Positions 5,541-10,656 of a DNA stretch of 39,393 nt are shown here, in pieces. The stretch is taken from assembly GCA_017416765.1 (NCBI GenBank), contig JAFQBE010000018.1:1-39393 (forward strand), written 5' to 3'. The notes beneath the pieces are model-generated. The model had not been told where the DNA came from. It ran no database searches and saw only the letters and a list, made by a program, of their open reading frames with translations. A program made the translations under genes and the position numbers. The stretch comes from Clostridia bacterium. GTDB taxonomy: Bacteria > Bacillota > Clostridia > Oscillospirales > Acutalibacteraceae. Each line of letters begins with the position of its first letter. Within the stretch, counting starts at the first letter, position 1.

Positions 5541-5584
5541 CAAAAAACTGTCGGAAAGTTGGACTTCCGACAGCATTTTTTTAG
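5541..5584. terminator. Bidirectional rho-independent terminator
   Basis: A 9-bp stem CTGTCGGAA / TTCCGACAG (5548-5573) with an 8-nt loop is flanked by T-runs in both orientations: CATTTTTTTA on the plus strand and GTTTTTTGTC on the minus strand. It insulates tetR from the upstream defence-like operon. Confidence 0.8.
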
Positions 5585-5633: not shown

Positions 5634-5795
5634 CTAATTTTGCAAATATAATTTTACAAGCTGCGGTTCGTACATTGTGCCTGCATTATCCCTGATTTTC
5701 TCACGATATTTTTCCTCCGGCAGTGCTTTTCTGTACGAAATCAAATACAGCAAGTAAAGTTTGTGGAACTTTGCATAAAAAATAAACGCCTTGAG
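5634..5795 (-). pseudogene. C-terminal remnant of an HD-GYP phosphodiesterase-like gene
   Basis: Read on the minus strand, this open stretch encodes a peptide containing SYRKALPEEKYREKI, then NAGTMYEPQLVKLYL, ending at TAG (5634-5636). This resembles the last helices of HD-GYP domains, which typically read SDRPYRKALP...EEI..NAGTxFDPxLVxxFL. The HD and GYP catalytic motifs that should lie upstream are absent, because the frame runs straight into the terminator hairpin and the stop of the preceding 171-residue gene. There is no ribosome site or convincing start. The match is short and from memory of the family, so a small unrelated ORF is possible. If correct, it marks a recombination breakpoint near 5795-5820. 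Confidence 0.45.
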
Positions 5796-5812
5796 CACGA
5801 AACTCAAGGCTG
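5780..5812 (-). terminator. Terminator closing the SLOG / methyltransferase / DUF262 operon
   Basis: An 8-bp stem GCCTTGAG / CTCAAGGC (5788-5810) begins about 10 bp after the stop of the last operon gene. On the minus strand it is followed by GTTTATTTTTTATG, a U-rich tail. Confidence 0.75.
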
Positions 5813-5819
5813 TATATGG

Positions 5820-6326
5820 TTAGTCTATCAGAAGCGGTCTTTCAAATTTGCATATTTCAAAACAATCGTTTTCAAATAGTGTGATTTCCATAATATCTCC
5901 AACGGAAAGATTGAGTGTCTTTACGGCAGTAGCGGTAAAGTGTATGCTGTCGCCTTCCAAAACCGCTTTTGTGACTTCTACATTTTCCTGTTTGAAAAAA
6001 TCAAGAGTTATGTCGTTTTCGCCGTCCGTAACGGGATATTCGTCAACATCGTATAAAATGTAGCTGTCTGTGAGAATGTAGTAAAAATCATTTTCCATTC
6101 TGCGAATGAAAGACAAGGCATTTGTCGGAAGCTTTATAACATATCCGTCAAGCACCTCGGCGAAAAAATGTCTGTCCATACCGTTTGTTGCAGCCAAGTC
6201 ATCATAACGCATCATTTCATTGTAAATGTCCGCCATCTCATCAAAATTGCGTTCTTCCATAGCCTTATAAAAGTCTGGTCTGTTTATTTCAAAAGATTTT
6301 TTCCGTAGATCTACAAAATTTCTCAA
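5820..6326 (-). CDS. Hypothetical protein, last gene of the defence-like operon
   Basis: I do not recognise this protein (about 168 residues). It is acidic and soluble, with no signal peptide or membrane segment. The N-terminal half is rich in charged helices (KKSFEINRPDFYKAMEERN). The C-terminal half looks like beta-strands and includes LSVGDIMEITLFENDCFEI, whose LxVGDxxxIxxF pattern recalls small beta-barrel DNA-binding folds such as the AbrB/SpoVT type; this resemblance is weak. The start was chosen as the TTG at 6326, because the AGGAG ribosome site would directly abut an earlier in-frame TTG (6335) but sits 9 nt from this one. It follows the zinc-ribbon gene by about 17 bp and is followed by a terminator, so it is the distal gene of the operon. 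Confidence 0.7.
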   Translation of the reverse strand: MRNFVDLRKKSFEINRPDFYKAMEERNFDEMADIYNEMMRYDDLAATNGMDRHFFAEVLDGYVIKLPTNALSFIRRMENDFYYILTDSYILYDVDEYPVTDGENDITLDFFKQENVEVTKAVLEGDSIHFTATAVKTLNLSVGDIMEITLFENDCFEICKFERPLLID

Positions 6327-6343
6327 ATACTTCAACTCCTATA

Positions 6344-6565
6344 TCAAACCATCAAATGAATATCGCAGGTAAAGCAATCAGTTCGGCCGTGAAGATTTCC
6401 CAAGCTGTCAAAGCGTACCCATTCGCCTTTACATTCGGAGCCGCAGTTCGGGCAAGTAAAGGTATAAGAACCTATTTTGTTTTCAAGACCTGCTGCTTTT
6501 CTTGCTTCGCTATCTGCCTTGAAGAAAGCGGCACACATTTCATCAGTTATCTTTTTTTCAAACAT
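6344..6565 (-). CDS. Small zinc-ribbon-like protein
   Basis: This is a 73-residue protein with paired cysteines CPNCGSEC and, about 30 residues later, CFTC, the spacing of a small treble-clef or zinc-ribbon fold. The start is the ATG at 6565, with AGGAG 8 nt upstream; an upstream GTG (6574) overlaps the ribosome site and is rejected. The stop of the DUF262-HNH gene lies within this gene's ribosome site, so the two are translationally coupled. Small zinc ribbons in such operons often act as nucleic-acid-binding or protein-binding adaptors; that role here is inference. Confidence 0.75.
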   Translation of the reverse strand: MFEKKITDEMCAAFFKADSEARKAAGLENKIGSYTFTCPNCGSECKGEWVRFDSLGNLHGRTDCFTCDIHLMV

Positions 6566-6576
6566 TGTTATCACTC

Positions 6577-7740
6577 CTATTTATTGCCTTTTGCTCTGTT
6601 ATGTGTTTTACAAAGCATCTGACAATTCTTTATATCCGTAGCTCCGCCTTTGCTCCAAGCGGTAACGTGGTCTGCATCCATTTCGGTTATTTTCCATACA
6701 CGGGTTTTATTATTATCGCTGCCGATAGCGCAGAGAGGACAGTTTGACACATTCTTTGCTTTTGCCTTTTCGGTCTGCTGTGTATAAACCGTCTTTTTTG
6801 TCGGCTCGTCAAAGACACGGATGTTAAGGAGCTTATTGTCGGTGCAGCCACCGAGGATGTATTCATAAACGCCCTTTTTGTCTTTTACATAAAAGTCGGC
6901 ATAAAGCTCACGGAGCTTTGCAGACACTTCATCGGGGTTATATGAGTTTGTGTGATACTGCTCGTAAAACTCGCCCCAAGGAAGTCCACGCATTTCACTT
7001 TCAACATCGGTGAACACACTTGATACCCAATCTATAACACTTGTGAAATATGCCTTTAACTCGGTTATATTATCGTCATAGCGGTGCTTGCTCATATAAT
7101 CGTCAATTTTACCTTTGCTTACCCATTCAAGAGCTGTGCGGAGATAATCTTGACGAAGAACACTACCGGAGATATAGGCACTCCATTTTTGGATATTGGC
7201 GTTCTGACTGTTTGAAAATTCCTCTTTTGCCTTTGTAACAAACGGGCCGGAATGAATGGCGTTAGACAATTCCTGCTCGTTTAATGGTATGCCTGCAATA
7301 TTGATAGTTTTGAACCATTCTTTGATTTCGCTTTCCGTACCCTCGCAGATGTAAATGGTAAGCGGTGTTTCCATTATCTTTTTCTGCATATCTTCAGCAA
7401 GACCGGAAAAATAACGAGGTATGCCGTTGCTATCGTTTATTGCAAATTTGCCCGTAACATATCGACCAAAGCTCGTTATACGCTGTTGACCGTCAAGAAC
7501 CTCATACTTGTCCTCGGCAACCTTTGTGAAATAGATAAGACCAAGCGGATAGCCTTTGATAATGGAATCAATAACAGCAACGTCACGCTTGCCGTCTGCA
7601 TATATGTAATTTCTTTGATATTCCGGCTGAATGACAAGTTTGCCGGACAGTCCGAACAGACCTTTGCCCTCGTATTCGTTATATACAAAGCCTTTGCAAA
7701 TGTCGGCTACGGTTATATCGGTTTTTAGGGTTGTAATCAT
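6577..7740 (-). CDS. DUF262 (ParB/GmrSD-N-like) protein with C-terminal HNH nuclease domain
   Basis: This is a 387-residue protein. The N-terminal DUF262 domain carries QPEYQR (38-43) and DGQQR (83-87); the DGQQR motif is the nucleotide-binding or hydrolysis signature of GmrSD, SspE and related DUF262 proteins. The C terminus is a compact HNH nuclease: CPLC (334-337), DADH with H358, N372, then LCKTHN with C377 and H380. The layout matches modification-sensing restriction enzymes, in which DUF262 gates an HNH domain, although the HNH segment here is the short McrA-like kind rather than DUF1524. The start ATG overlaps the methyltransferase stop (ATGA), and a good ribosome site AAGGGGG precedes it. 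Sitting behind an M.EcoRI-like methyltransferase, it is the likely nuclease arm of the operon. Whether it cuts methylated, unmethylated or otherwise modified DNA cannot be told from sequence. Confidence 0.85.
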   Translation of the reverse strand: MITTLKTDITVADICKGFVYNEYEGKGLFGLSGKLVIQPEYQRNYIYADGKRDVAVIDSIIKGYPLGLIYFTKVAEDKYEVLDGQQRITSFGRYVTGKFAINDSNGIPRYFSGLAEDMQKKIMETPLTIYICEGTESEIKEWFKTINIAGIPLNEQELSNAIHSGPFVTKAKEEFSNSQNANIQKWSAYISGSVLRQDYLRTALEWVSKGKIDDYMSKHRYDDNITELKAYFTSVIDWVSSVFTDVESEMRGLPWGEFYEQYHTNSYNPDEVSAKLRELYADFYVKDKKGVYEYILGGCTDNKLLNIRVFDEPTKKTVYTQQTEKAKAKNVSNCPLCAIGSDNNKTRVWKITEMDADHVTAWSKGGATDIKNCQMLCKTHNRAKGNK

Positions 7741-8882
7741 TTTGTTGCCCCCTTTGGTTTAATTAAAATACGCATATAAGGCACTACGGCTTTGCCGGTT
7801 TTATCGTAATAACAAAGATCGGGATGTCCTGCGGATATTTGTCCTGTATTACCTTGTGCATAATAGTCATCAACAAACTGTTGTGACATTCCTTGACCAT
7901 CTTGTAAATATCTGCTTAATTCTATAATTTCAAATTGTTCGGGACAGTATTTATCCAAAAAGCTGATAGGCACTCCCATAATTCCGTCAAAATCACTTGG
8001 TATAGCATCAGTATATGGAACTTCAATGGCATTGTAGTTGTCATATTCACAATATCCCATATTACGGATTTCTTTATGTTTGCTGAATTTTATATTATCA
8101 TCAGCAGTCATTAGTGATAATGGTTGATGTCTGCGCCCGTGTTCAAAATTAGTAAACCAACAACAATTACGGAATTTTACAAGTCCCGTCTTATCGTCAT
8201 ATACCCCATTTGCATAATTAGCGAAATTTTCTCCAATAGGTCTAAAATATGCGTTTCCTCCGCTGAATCCATTACCAAGCCATATCTTGTTTTCTCTTAT
8301 CAAGGGAAATACCTCTTTGTATGTAATGGCGTTCATATTGCCTATGATAATAAACTTCTTGTCAGCTTCGATTATCCAAGCCAAGAACTCTCGAAAGAGC
8401 GAGAATGGCGGATTTGTAACAATTATATCAGCTTCGTTTCTTAACTGTATAACTTCCTCACTTCTAAAATCTCCATCGCCTTCAAGATAGTGCCATTCTA
8501 AATCATCAATGTCTATACTGCCAGATTTGTTGCTATCACGGGTTAAGGTAAATATCTTTCCGTGCGTATTAGTTTTTGTTTCGTCAAATTGAGGGCTATT
8601 TTCTTCAAAGAATGAAAGCTGTTGAAATTTGATTTTTTTACTCTCGGTAGCATAGCTTGTGCTTATCAATTTTTTCAAACCAAAGTTTTCAAAGTTCTGT
8701 GCAAAAAACTTTGTAAAGTTGCTCCATTCAGGATCATCACAAGGGAGCAGAACTGTTTTGCCTTTGAAAACATCAGGGTTATATTCCAAGTAAGCATTTA
8801 TTTCTCGCTGTATATCTTCATACTGAGTATAAAACTCATCGTTTTTTGTGCTTTTCGCATCTTTAAGGTTTGAATGAGCCAT
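7737..8882 (-). CDS. M.EcoRI-type adenine-specific DNA methyltransferase
   Basis: This 381-residue protein resembles M.EcoRI along its length. Landmarks are DEFYTQY (15-21), the SAM-pocket variant CDDPEWSNF (48-56), GDGDFRS (135-141), the catalytic motif IV NPPF (157-160) followed by SLFREFL, the segment ITYKEVFPLIRENKIWLG, and GVPISFLDKYCPEQFEI near the C terminus. Family knowledge: these enzymes transfer a methyl group from SAM to N6 of adenine, GAATTC for M.EcoRI; the target here is unknown. The start ATG at 8882 has AGGAG upstream. The gene begins 5 bp after the SLOG gene and overlaps the DUF262-HNH gene by 4 bp. No R.EcoRI-like endonuclease lies nearby, so the DUF262-HNH protein is the only candidate nuclease partner. 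The family call is confident. Confidence 0.93.
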   Translation of the reverse strand: MAHSNLKDAKSTKNDEFYTQYEDIQREINAYLEYNPDVFKGKTVLLPCDDPEWSNFTKFFAQNFENFGLKKLISTSYATESKKIKFQQLSFFEENSPQFDETKTNTHGKIFTLTRDSNKSGSIDIDDLEWHYLEGDGDFRSEEVIQLRNEADIIVTNPPFSLFREFLAWIIEADKKFIIIGNMNAITYKEVFPLIRENKIWLGNGFSGGNAYFRPIGENFANYANGVYDDKTGLVKFRNCCWFTNFEHGRRHQPLSLMTADDNIKFSKHKEIRNMGYCEYDNYNAIEVPYTDAIPSDFDGIMGVPISFLDKYCPEQFEIIELSRYLQDGQGMSQQFVDDYYAQGNTGQISAGHPDLCYYDKTGKAVVPYMRILIKPKGATK

Positions 8883-8887
8883 AATAT

Positions 8888-9418
8888 CTATTCTCCTACA
8901 AATACATTTACAATTTCCTTCTTCTTTCTTACGGCGTAGTCATAAGCGACCTTTGTACCGCTTTTAGGTTGATAGTCTGTCAAATCTCGACTGCTGTTTC
9001 TTCTTCTCGGCGGTGCATAGTTTTCGTCGTAGTACACCACACAGAAATCAGATTTGTTTATCATTTCCTGATTCCGTTCTACATAGGATGCTTTTCCCGC
9101 TTTTCCCATATGTTCCGGGAAGTATGTTTCTTCATAATGGTTCAGCAGACTATCCTCGTACCAATCGGGAATATGCTGAAAAGCCGACCTCACATAAACA
9201 CGCTTTATGTGGGGATATTTTTCTTTCAACTCGGTTGCAACCTTATGGCATAAGTCATCAAATTCACTTTTGCTGCCGAAATAAAAAACATCAACCTCTT
9301 TTTCCGTGATTAAGACTTCCATCTCTTTTGTCAGTCTTTCTATCAATTCGGGTGTTTCGTTTATTTTTCTATGTCCGAAAAAGCAGCAGCTATGTGATGT
9401 ATCAATTTCTTTATTCAC
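8888..9418 (-). CDS. SLOG-like (YpsA/DUF1273-type) nucleotide-binding protein
   Basis: This 176-residue protein opens with a beta-strand leading to CCFFGHRK (GHR at 15-17), then VFYFGSKSEFDDLCHKVA and an RxYVRSA strand, and later FCVVYYDE and GTKVAYDYAVRKKKEIVNVF. This is the Rossmann-like pattern of the SLOG superfamily (YpsA/DUF1273, LOG, DprA-like), in which a Gly-rich loop and an acidic helix bind nucleotide-derived ligands. The GSKSEFDD loop departs from the usual GGAxGFD. The start is GTG at 9418, the only in-frame start after an upstream stop; its ribosome site is weak. As first gene of the operon it may be a nucleotide-signal sensor, as SLOG domains are in Thoeris-type defence, but that is inference. 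It lies immediately beyond the integrase 3' palindrome. Confidence 0.75.
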   Translation of the reverse strand: MNKEIDTSHSCCFFGHRKINETPELIERLTKEMEVLITEKEVDVFYFGSKSEFDDLCHKVATELKEKYPHIKRVYVRSAFQHIPDWYEDSLLNHYEETYFPEHMGKAGKASYVERNQEMINKSDFCVVYYDENYAPPRRRNSSRDLTDYQPKSGTKVAYDYAVRKKKEIVNVFVGE

Positions 9419-9435
9419 GATAACACTTCACTTTC

Positions 9436-9568
9436 TCCGTCAAATTGATTAAATACTTGATTTAAGGGCAAAAATAAAAGTCGTTAAGTACAATACTTAA
9501 TGACTAACCTTTAATTTTTGCCCTTATCAAGCACTATTCAATTTAGTATGACGGACTAATTTGACGGA
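9436..9568. repeat. Inverted-repeat complex downstream of the integrase (candidate attachment or Int-binding region)
   Basis: A 76-bp near-palindrome spans 9456-9531. Its outer arms begin CTTGATTTAAGGGCAAAAAT (left) and end TTTTTGCCCTTATCAAG (right). Its inner stem GTCGTTAAGTA / TACTTAATGAC closes on a 3-nt loop (9480-9504). It is flanked by TCCGTCAAATT (9436-9446) and AATTTGACGGA (9558-9568), another inverted pair, with TGACGGA once more at 9549-9555. Position next to the int stop suggests an element end or Int-binding sites. It could equally act as a bidirectional terminator between int and the next operon. Confidence 0.6.
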
Positions 9569-10656
9569 TTATAGAGCTTTCCGAGTCTGTCCATTTCCTT
9601 TTTCTTATGCTCCGGTAGTGAATGAGAATAGAGGTTGAGTGTTACCGTAGGCGATGAATGACCGAGTATTTCCGAAAGTGTTTTTATATCCATACCGATC
9701 TCCAAAGCTCTCGTTGCAAAGGTGTGTCGGGTGGAATGGAACTTACGGTACGGAATATCCAATTCCTCCAAAATCTTTTTATATCTCCGGGCATATACAT
9801 TCGGCTCGATAAATTTCCCGTTTCTTTGAATAAGAAAACCACTTCCGTTTTTAATCGCAGATAGCTTTGCAATCAAAAATTTTGGAAGTGGTATATCTCT
9901 GATGGACGATTCACTTTTAGGAGTGGATATTCTCAATTCAGTTTTCTTTTTGCCTTTTTCGCTTTTTACTCTATACAGCGTTTGTACGATAGATATAACA
10001 CCTCTTTTCAAGTCGATATAATCCAAGTCCAATGCACATAATTCGCCAATTCTAATTCCCGTATAGAAGCAAATAAGAATACCAATGTCGTTGGGATTAT
10101 TTGAATTATCTATATACTGCTCAATGGCTTTCTGTTCAGCCTTGTTAAAGACTTTTACCTCTTTTCTTTTAACCTTTGGGAGCTTCATCTTGCGGCATAG
10201 CTCAATGGTCAGCTTTTTCTCATAAGCATCCGTAAGACCTAACCGAAGAACCGAAAATACAGAACGGACACTCTTGGGTGCAAGCTCATTTGATATATTA
10301 TCAACAAAGGTTTGGATGTGCTCATCGGTCAATAGCTTCAGCTTGATTTTTCCGAGTCGCTTTTTAATATGCTTATTGATATTTGATGAATAGGTTGTAT
10401 AGGAGGAACGCTTGATGCGCTTTTGTGATTCAAGCCATTTTTCAAACCACATTGCCACTGTCATATCAGAGGAAATAGGCTTTTGTGCCTTTTGAATATT
10501 GGCTTTTGCAAGCGTTAATTTTTCTTTTGCTTCCTTGTAGGTTTTCCCATAAATATATCCGGGAATAGCCTTGCCATCTACATCATATCCCTTGATATAT
10601 CTGCCTTCCCATCGACCGTCTTTTCTCTTGTAAATGTTTTCACCGTGACGTGCCAT
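9556..10656 (-). CDS. int: Tyrosine recombinase / ICE integrase (Tn916 Int type)
   Basis: This 366-residue site-specific recombinase has three parts. The N-terminal AP2-like arm-DNA-binding domain (residues 1-55, IYKRKDGRWEGRYIKGYD) recognises arm sites. A SAM-like core-binding domain covers about 63-150. The catalytic domain carries R202 (TGIRIGE), K247, H307 and R310 (HSTRH), H333 (LGH) and the nucleophile Y343 (NLYSH). All catalytic residues are present, so it should be active for integration and, with an excisionase, excision. The start ATG follows AGAGAGG at good spacing. No excisionase-sized ORF lies in the 250 bp upstream, where Tn916-like elements often carry xis. Short repeats shared by both flanks of the gene look like its binding sites. 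The neighbouring transfer genes indicate that it mobilises an ICE. Confidence 0.95.
   Translation of the reverse strand: MARHGENIYKRKDGRWEGRYIKGYDVDGKAIPGYIYGKTYKEAKEKLTLAKANIQKAQKPISSDMTVAMWFEKWLESQKRIKRSSYTTYSSNINKHIKKRLGKIKLKLLTDEHIQTFVDNISNELAPKSVRSVFSVLRLGLTDAYEKKLTIELCRKMKLPKVKRKEVKVFNKAEQKAIEQYIDNSNNPNDIGILICFYTGIRIGELCALDLDYIDLKRGVISIVQTLYRVKSEKGKKKTELRISTPKSESSIRDIPLPKFLIAKLSAIKNGSGFLIQRNGKFIEPNVYARRYKKILEELDIPYRKFHSTRHTFATRALEIGMDIKTLSEILGHSSPTVTLNLYSHSLPEHKKKEMDRLGKLYNPSN

Follow-up and report, generated by a model that had tools for sequence, protein, structure and literature searches.

A methylase–nuclease gene pair with exchangeable methylase cassettes as a candidate compact restriction–modification system

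The 39,393-nucleotide contig JAFQBE010000018.1 of a Clostridia bacterium from the family Acutalibacteraceae (the window, by which we mean the whole stretch of DNA that was analysed) encodes on its minus strand an adenine-type methylase of the M.EcoRI family (positions 7737–8882), followed by a DUF262-HNH nuclease (6577–7740). We propose that the two proteins constitute a compact restriction–modification (R-M) system, with the sequence specificity of both activities residing in the methylase, which aims the nuclease. We assign a probability of about two in three to this explanation, in which complex formation, recognition of DNA by methylase segments and restriction are all inferred. The evidence comes from the conservation of the gene pair and from the exchange of short segments of the methylase next to nucleases that remain the same.

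A conserved pair of methylase and nuclease genes

The methylase matches the EcoRI_methylase profile (PF13651) from end to end (420.8 bits, cut-off 26.4; profile positions 1–345 of 345), and its AlphaFold2 model has a predicted local distance difference test score of 90.5. The motif NPPF, which is catalytic in methylases, is located at residues 157–160 (8403–8414, minus strand, as are all positions in the two genes) and is invariant in 24 aligned rows. The 387-residue-long nuclease combines a GmrSD_N/DUF262 domain (70.9 bits, cut-off 33.2) with an HNH domain (PF01844; 33.0 bits, cut-off 21.4). Its motif DGQQR (residues 83–87, 7480–7494) is invariant in 23 aligned rows, as are D357 and H358 of the HNH region, which extends from C334 to the C-terminus (6580–6741) and is covered by the HNH profile at residues 350–387. 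Excerpts of PMC10952713 describe DGQQR as a nucleotide-binding motif of DUF262 proteins, and its presence predicts nucleotide binding by the nuclease from the window.

Relatives of the nuclease were collected from several sources. The window's family, represented by 200 genomes, yielded 27 with a match at E ≤ 0.001, and 16 loci were extended. Matches were present in 127 plasmid and nine phage records, from which ten records were fetched. The genome_contigs collection contributed the best 80 of at least 546 confirmed loci and the viral_contigs collection 80 of 157. The resulting set of 186 loci includes near-duplicates, and each locus has at least a part of the nuclease gene; all were fetched via the nuclease, except for one found via the methylase (L095).

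The methylase gene is present in 176 of the 186 loci. In the remaining ten, the nuclease begins 1–426 bases from the end of the contig, and the tail of the methylase gene is still visible in three of them (L126, L141 and L243). Every locus that can be judged (176 of 176) thus contains the methylase, and none has the nuclease without it. The methylase is located upstream of the nuclease on the same strand in 161 of the 162 loci in which both genes are long enough, the exception being L225, in which it is downstream. The two genes overlap in 84 loci, are separated by 0–50 bp in 59 and by 51–200 bp in seven, and are more than 200 bp apart in 11. The conserved unit is a two-gene pair, an M.EcoRI-family methylase followed by a DUF262-HNH nuclease, which bears out the suggestion of the preliminary description of this locus that the two proteins belong together.

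According to record titles, the pair occurs in Bacillota, Bacteroidota, Pseudomonadota, Chloroflexota, several Patescibacteria-type lineages, Spirochaetota, Verrucomicrobiota and others, and it is also found on actinobacterial plasmids, 9-kb plasmids and viral contigs. In a Flavobacterium phage (L090, 3781–6143), the pair is intact and adjoins the tape measure gene, which is encoded on the other strand. An Enterococcus faecium plasmid (L087) has optrA and erm(A) close to the pair, an E. dispar plasmid (L335) has optrA between the methylase and DUF262 genes, and in a plasmid of Paracoccus marcusii (L091) both genes are fragmented.

Exchange of methylase cassettes

The methylase is a mosaic with two segments that are exchanged independently of each other. 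The mosaic was analysed in 161 of the 186 loci, in which both genes are nearly full length and the methylase is upstream, together with the window (162 loci); L225, with its downstream methylase, was excluded, as were loci with truncated or disrupted genes. Alignment columns of the nuclease (23 rows) average 54% identity, and those of the methylase (24 rows) 36%. The variability profile over the 162 loci contains two hypervariable stretches of the methylase, residues 204–240 (8163–8273) and 320–368 (7779–7925), which we call TRD1 and TRD2, as candidate target recognition domains (TRDs). Within the window's clade of 124 loci, pairwise identities of both segments are bimodal, with most values at 10–30% and a second group at about 50–90%. 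Single linkage at 60% identity defined 33 TRD1 and 74 TRD2 cassettes, singletons included. At least two TRD2 cassettes were combined with 13 of the 16 multi-member TRD1 cassettes, the reverse was true of 23 of 32, and the identities of the two segments hardly correlate (r 0.08). One TRD1 cassette, present in 25 loci, spans nucleases with identities down to 34%. The edges of TRD1 are sharp: in 506 pairs of close methylases with swapped TRD1, identity is 1.00 at G203, only 0.09 at the adjoining N204 and again 1.00 at W242, while F213 is constant inside the segment.

An EF-hand- or dockerin-like loop at methylase residues 79–134 is present in 87 of 165 paired methylases and in four of 22 solo or other methylases; it is absent from both EcoRI methylases and from the one interrupted methylase. 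As a mark of pairing with the nuclease the loop is not exclusive, hence it was not used.

The cassettes are exchanged almost independently of the nuclease. The identity of nucleases correlates with that of the methylase framework (r 0.79, 162 loci), and its correlation coefficients with TRD1 and TRD2 are 0.06 and 0.08 overall, and 0.04 and 0.09 in the window's clade. A tree built from the nucleases of 152 non-redundant loci was used to map cassettes with at least three members. The number of changes required was 75 for TRD1 (127 rows, 11 states; minimum 10, shuffled data 89.6 ± 2.7) and 68 for TRD2 (88 rows, 19 states; minimum 18, shuffled data 70.6 ± 2.0). The control label, the framework cluster (96 rows, four states), required 10 changes versus 26.7 after shuffling. 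Individual alignment columns were tested in 113 non-redundant loci of the window's clade at a family-wise threshold of 5%, equivalent to z of 4.35 for TRD1 and 4.20 for TRD2. None of the 248 variable nuclease columns follows TRD1 and two, T128 and K170, follow TRD2; in the methylase framework, five and ten columns, respectively, passed the same test. When a four-letter column was planted with 40% noise, its median z was 13.7 for TRD1 and 7.3 for TRD2 (minimum 6.1 and 3.3).

Individual loci provide the most direct examples of the exchange. The nucleases of L106 and L107 are identical in 385 of 386 residues and the methylase frameworks in 96%, and their TRD1 and TRD2 segments share 25% and 17% of residues. 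Similarly, L212 and L213 have nucleases identical in 389 of 390 residues and frameworks 94% identical, with TRD1 at 29% and TRD2 at 16%. Three loci (L047, L190 and L197) encode one nuclease together with two long methylases, the frameworks of which are 72–86% identical, with identities of 9–15% in TRD1 and 8–13% in TRD2.

In several loci, alternative TRD2 cassettes are arranged in a manner that would allow inversion. An inverted repeat of 18–25 bp is located inside the methylase gene, where TRD2 begins, in L094 (Phocaeicola massiliensis), L201, L212 and L213. The repeat translates in frame as QFEILG or FSILG, and its partner arm follows after 308–350 intervening bases. Behind the methylase gene there are further TRD2 cassettes on the opposite strand, one in L094 and two each in L201, L212 and L213. 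A tyrosine recombinase is encoded 3′ of the nuclease in these four loci and in L209, with 62–100% identity to that of L094. In L213 the cassette designated KTW is active and the DRG and QTQ cassettes are silent. In L201 it is DRG that is active, in a version sharing 74% of residues with its silent counterpart in L213, and KTW and QTQ are the silent ones. The nucleases of L201 and L213 are 64% identical despite the same set of three cassettes in the opposite configuration. L209 and L345 are one contig, at the edge of which the reverse strand encodes a piece matching the active cassette of L212 in all 23 residues (100% identity). Inverted TRD2 copies are also present in L225 and L237, with no L094-like recombinase in the fetched stretch. 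The comparison is between different contigs, and in Phocaeicola and related contigs the TRD2 set looks like a built-in flip switch. In the window, none of the 220 matches of TRD queries revealed a TRD-like segment outside the methylase gene.

Three other loci (L045, L139 and L219) have a second TRD2-like segment in the same orientation after the methylase, possibly a tandem reserve cassette. An extra gene, the product of which resembles BRO-N-type proteins, is located between methylase and nuclease in L094, L212 (4127–4978) and L213 (2469–3320).

The comparison of segments indicates that M.EcoRI and solo methylases share a cassette pool with the nuclease-paired methylases. TRD1 of the methylases from two plasmid-borne EcoRI systems (L333 and L334) is 66–68% identical to that of the nuclease-paired L121, L166 and L177 and 71% identical to that of the solo methylase L289; the cassette of the three paired loci occurs in 14 loci, where it is combined with 11 different TRD2 cassettes. 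TRD2 of these two methylases shares 81% of residues with L164, which is paired with the nuclease and has a different TRD1, and 76–81% with the solo methylases L283 and L328. In addition, TRD1 is identical in the solo L286 and the paired L220. The two EcoRI systems, which form a small control, have methylases 83% identical overall and keep the same cassettes (TRD1 95%, TRD2 90%). The target of the EcoRI methylase is GAATTC, and EcoRI-like cassettes may therefore serve as anchors for decoding motifs. Excerpts of PMC4889913 report that Campylobacter M.CjeNI (Cj0208), whose membership of the same family is not established here, modifies RAATTY. The EcoRI endonuclease family (PF02963) was found in one of 299 genomes of the phylum, and no PF13651 methylase was detected in the short flanks of that locus (L332).

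Proposed mechanism and alternative explanations

Based on the conserved gene pair and the exchange of cassettes, a mechanism can be proposed. TRD1 and TRD2 would be DNA target recognition domains, each reading a part of the motif, as their exchange behaviour suggests. Self DNA would be marked by methylation of an adenine within the motif. Unmodified sites in foreign DNA would be located by the methylase, alone or in complex with the nuclease, and the DUF262-HNH protein would then be engaged, its nucleotide-binding domain gating cleavage by the HNH domain. A swap of a cassette in one gene would then change the specificity so that protection and attack shift together. The preliminary description had suggested that the methylase marks self DNA and that the nuclease attacks according to modification, and marking of self with attack on unmarked DNA is also the logic that probably fits the present data best.

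If the mechanism is correct, one nuclease could be re-targeted via the exchange of short cassettes in the partner gene, an option not open to classical Type II enzymes. The continual change of target in so small a system would thereby be explained. Some gut Bacteroidota would gain a compact means of varying methylation and restriction together. M.EcoRI would fall inside a large combinatorial family, with motifs that could be worked out one cassette at a time. Given how common the pair is, existing long-read methylomes could provide a direct test. We speculate further that the pair represents a separate mechanistic type of R-M system, made of two proteins, in which a single-chain adenine methylase with two part-site cassettes aims a nucleotide-gated nuclease; it would be spread across many phyla and mobile elements, have an invertible switch in some Bacteroidota and draw on a cassette pool common with the EcoRI methylase. 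This broader claim is tentative, and we put it at somewhat less than an even chance.

Several points weigh against a methylase that aims the nuclease. Complex formation, cleavage, motif-specific methylation and a phage phenotype are all predictions from sequence. Foldseek returned no match of the nuclease at E ≤ 0.001, the best being BrxU at 4.4e-3. No fusion of methylase and nuclease occurs among the 186 loci. M.EcoRI itself works beside an independent nuclease, which is unrelated and has its own recognition. Among 76 methylase-centred loci, the nuclease is present in 47 and lacking in 21 (six others end too soon downstream and two are without such a methylase). Within the window's clade, the correlation between nuclease and framework is just 0.28 (124 loci), so the low correlation with the cassettes is less striking there. 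The change counts on the tree, relative to shuffled data, imply that TRD1 keeps some phylogenetic signal and TRD2 hardly any, and two nuclease columns, T128 and K170, do follow TRD2. Weak or spread-out determinants in the nuclease could escape the column test, since a planted column with 60% noise reached a median z of only 5.6 (TRD1) and 2.2 (TRD2); a clear single-column determinant should show.

The same data can be read in other ways. The nuclease might sense modification in the manner of GmrSD, BrxU and SspE, reading the presence or lack of N6-methyladenine (m6A) or phage base modifications independently of sequence, while the methylase only sets the host state and the cassettes vary the host pattern. 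Such a sensor also predicts nuclease columns that hardly follow the cassettes. It is in line with VIA-align, used as a second look confined to the families on Foldseek's list, in which the DUF262 fold of the nuclease is like those of BrxU and SspE; excerpts of PMC8713573 and PMC10952713 describe SspE as acting with host marks. However, attacking DNA for the lack of sparse m6A requires that unmodified sites are found without reading the sequence. A methylase in all 176 judgeable loci is unexpected for a pure sensor of phage modification, and the nuclease is without the DUF1524 domain, so that we consider this explanation unlikely. A nuclease that itself recognises the site of the methylase, with both changing together as in classical Type II systems, is considerably less plausible. 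It is difficult to reconcile with near-identical nucleases next to unrelated cassettes, with one nuclease beside two unlike methylases, with the column test and with invertible-type TRD2 cassettes next to a fixed nuclease, although the gene arrangement, the membership of the methylase in the M.EcoRI family and matches to the PADLOC models REase_II and MTase_II speak for it.

The pair might instead be an addiction module, in which the methylase guards against or restrains a nuclease of low specificity, the pair mainly maintains mobile elements, and the exchange of cassettes is incidental. The pair does reside on small plasmids, a phage and integrative elements, and no judgeable locus has the nuclease without the methylase, while the methylase occurs without the nuclease in the 21 loci mentioned above. 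Sharp-edged exchange of two segments and a recombinase-linked TRD2 set remain unexplained by such a module, to which we give only a slim chance; moreover, the roles in restriction and maintenance can coexist. The preliminary description had proposed a five-gene defence system, in which a SLOG-like protein (8888–9418) senses a nucleotide signal and regulates the methylase and DUF262-HNH protein, and a zinc-ribbon protein (6344–6574) and the product of open reading frame 5 (ORF5; 5820–6335) are further parts. Its basis is the gene organisation in the window: five co-directional genes, two of which overlap while the rest are spaced by 2–8 bp, followed by a hairpin. We attach almost no weight to it, as none of the three accessory genes is near the pair in any of the 186 other loci (tblastn, E ≤ 1e-3; flanks of about 5–8 kb at most, many contigs being short). 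ORF5 was not found in 199 other genomes of the family or 198 other genomes of the phylum, and SLOG relatives are common without the pair, with 87 of the 200 genomes of the family containing one (this count includes the genome of the window). The closest of them (85–87% identity) is on a 3.1-kb contig (L079) of genome G190, which is not among the 27 family genomes with a nuclease match; the gene adjoining it is presumably hcp-like. The proposal was rejected, and the neighbour survey reveals a conserved pair in place of a conserved five-gene order.

The five genes of the window are located where the preliminary description had placed them, all on the minus strand; the methylase and nuclease genes overlap by 4 bp, and the remaining gaps are 5, 2 and 8 bp, with the gap before the zinc protein widening to 11 bp if its alternative ATG at 6565 is used. 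They may well be co-transcribed in the source genome. The methylase, nuclease and SLOG (YpsA type; 33.3 bits, cut-off 27.7) identities are all above family cut-offs, and NPPF, DGQQR and H358 are intact. The small cysteine-rich protein has CxxC pairs, the sole basis of its zinc-ribbon label, and matches no family above the cut-off; the same is true of ORF5, which has an uncertain TTG start. The hairpin taken as the operon's own terminator exists 3′ of ORF5 (5788–5810, minus strand) and is weak alone, since the scan of the window found five sites versus 3.3 ± 2.2 in shuffled sequences. The scan listed no minus-strand promoter-like site in the 137 bases before the SLOG gene. Another hairpin, with T-runs on both strands, is located at 5547–5574 between the operon and a TetR-type gene. 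The adjacent tyrosine integrase (9556–10656) was confirmed by a family profile match, and the chromosomal flank of the neighbouring element, a putative integrative and conjugative element (ICE) in the preliminary description, was found in none of ten other genomes of the genus. Sequence searches against solved structures gave no match for the window's methylase or M.EcoRI, nothing significant for the SLOG protein and no relative of ORF5.

Comparison with known restriction systems

The pair has the methylase family in common with the Type II system EcoRI, which combines PF13651 with R.EcoRI (PF02963). Adjoining, separate methylase and nuclease genes are a feature of classical Type II systems that is also present here. 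At the level of sequence, the joint change of nuclease and methylase, a defining feature of that class, appears to be missing, and a classical Type II identity fails on this point. Cleavage without nucleotide hydrolysis is another feature of the class; in the pair, the DUF262 domain with its DGQQR motif predicts that the nuclease binds a nucleotide. The PADLOC models MTase_II (297.4 bits, residues 5–325) and REase_II (309.7 bits, residues 9–387) match the two proteins, so that this tool would call the pair Type II; the models name a class and are no evidence of a specificity of the nuclease's own. In Type IIL enzymes such as MmeI and DrdV, the nuclease is fused, whereas here it is a separate DUF262-HNH chain.

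The DUF262 domain is shared with GmrSD-type (DUF262-DUF1524) proteins such as GmrSD, BrxU and SspE, which are of the Type IV or phosphorothioate-linked kind. The C-terminus of the window's nuclease is an HNH domain, not DUF1524, which is absent among profile matches up to E = 1, and its 387 residues compare with chains of 560–771 residues in the GmrSD, BrxU and SspE type. Unlike those proteins, the nuclease has an EcoRI-family adenine methylase as a constant neighbour, which argues against independent action of the nuclease on foreign DNA that carries modifications.

The preliminary description had called the system undescribed, which is too strong for the pair, as its components are already catalogued in PADLOC. 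No paper on the pair, its cassette exchange or inversion was recognised in the open-access literature (REBASE, preprints and subscription papers were outside the scope). No helicase family, HsdR or Res, is among the family matches of the core proteins, and the pair differs from Type III Mod/Res systems by having no helicase-type Res subunit. Recognition segments of Type I systems reside in a separate specificity subunit, whereas the pair, a two-gene system, has them within one methylase chain. Recombination between alternative recognition sequences, with inverted repeats and a recombinase, is described in excerpts of PMC11868660 for phase-variable Type I systems in which hsdS is invertible, such as SpnIII; cassettes between inverted repeats together with a recombinase are found in L094, L201, L212 and L213. 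In Type I and Type III systems, exchangeable TRDs serve both modification and restriction; exchange of segments next to a constant nuclease is observed in the pair, while the nuclease would make use of the segments only if the proposed mechanism is correct. The parts of the pair are thus familiar and its logic resembles that of Type I and Type III systems; the new element is the division of specificity between the two proteins.

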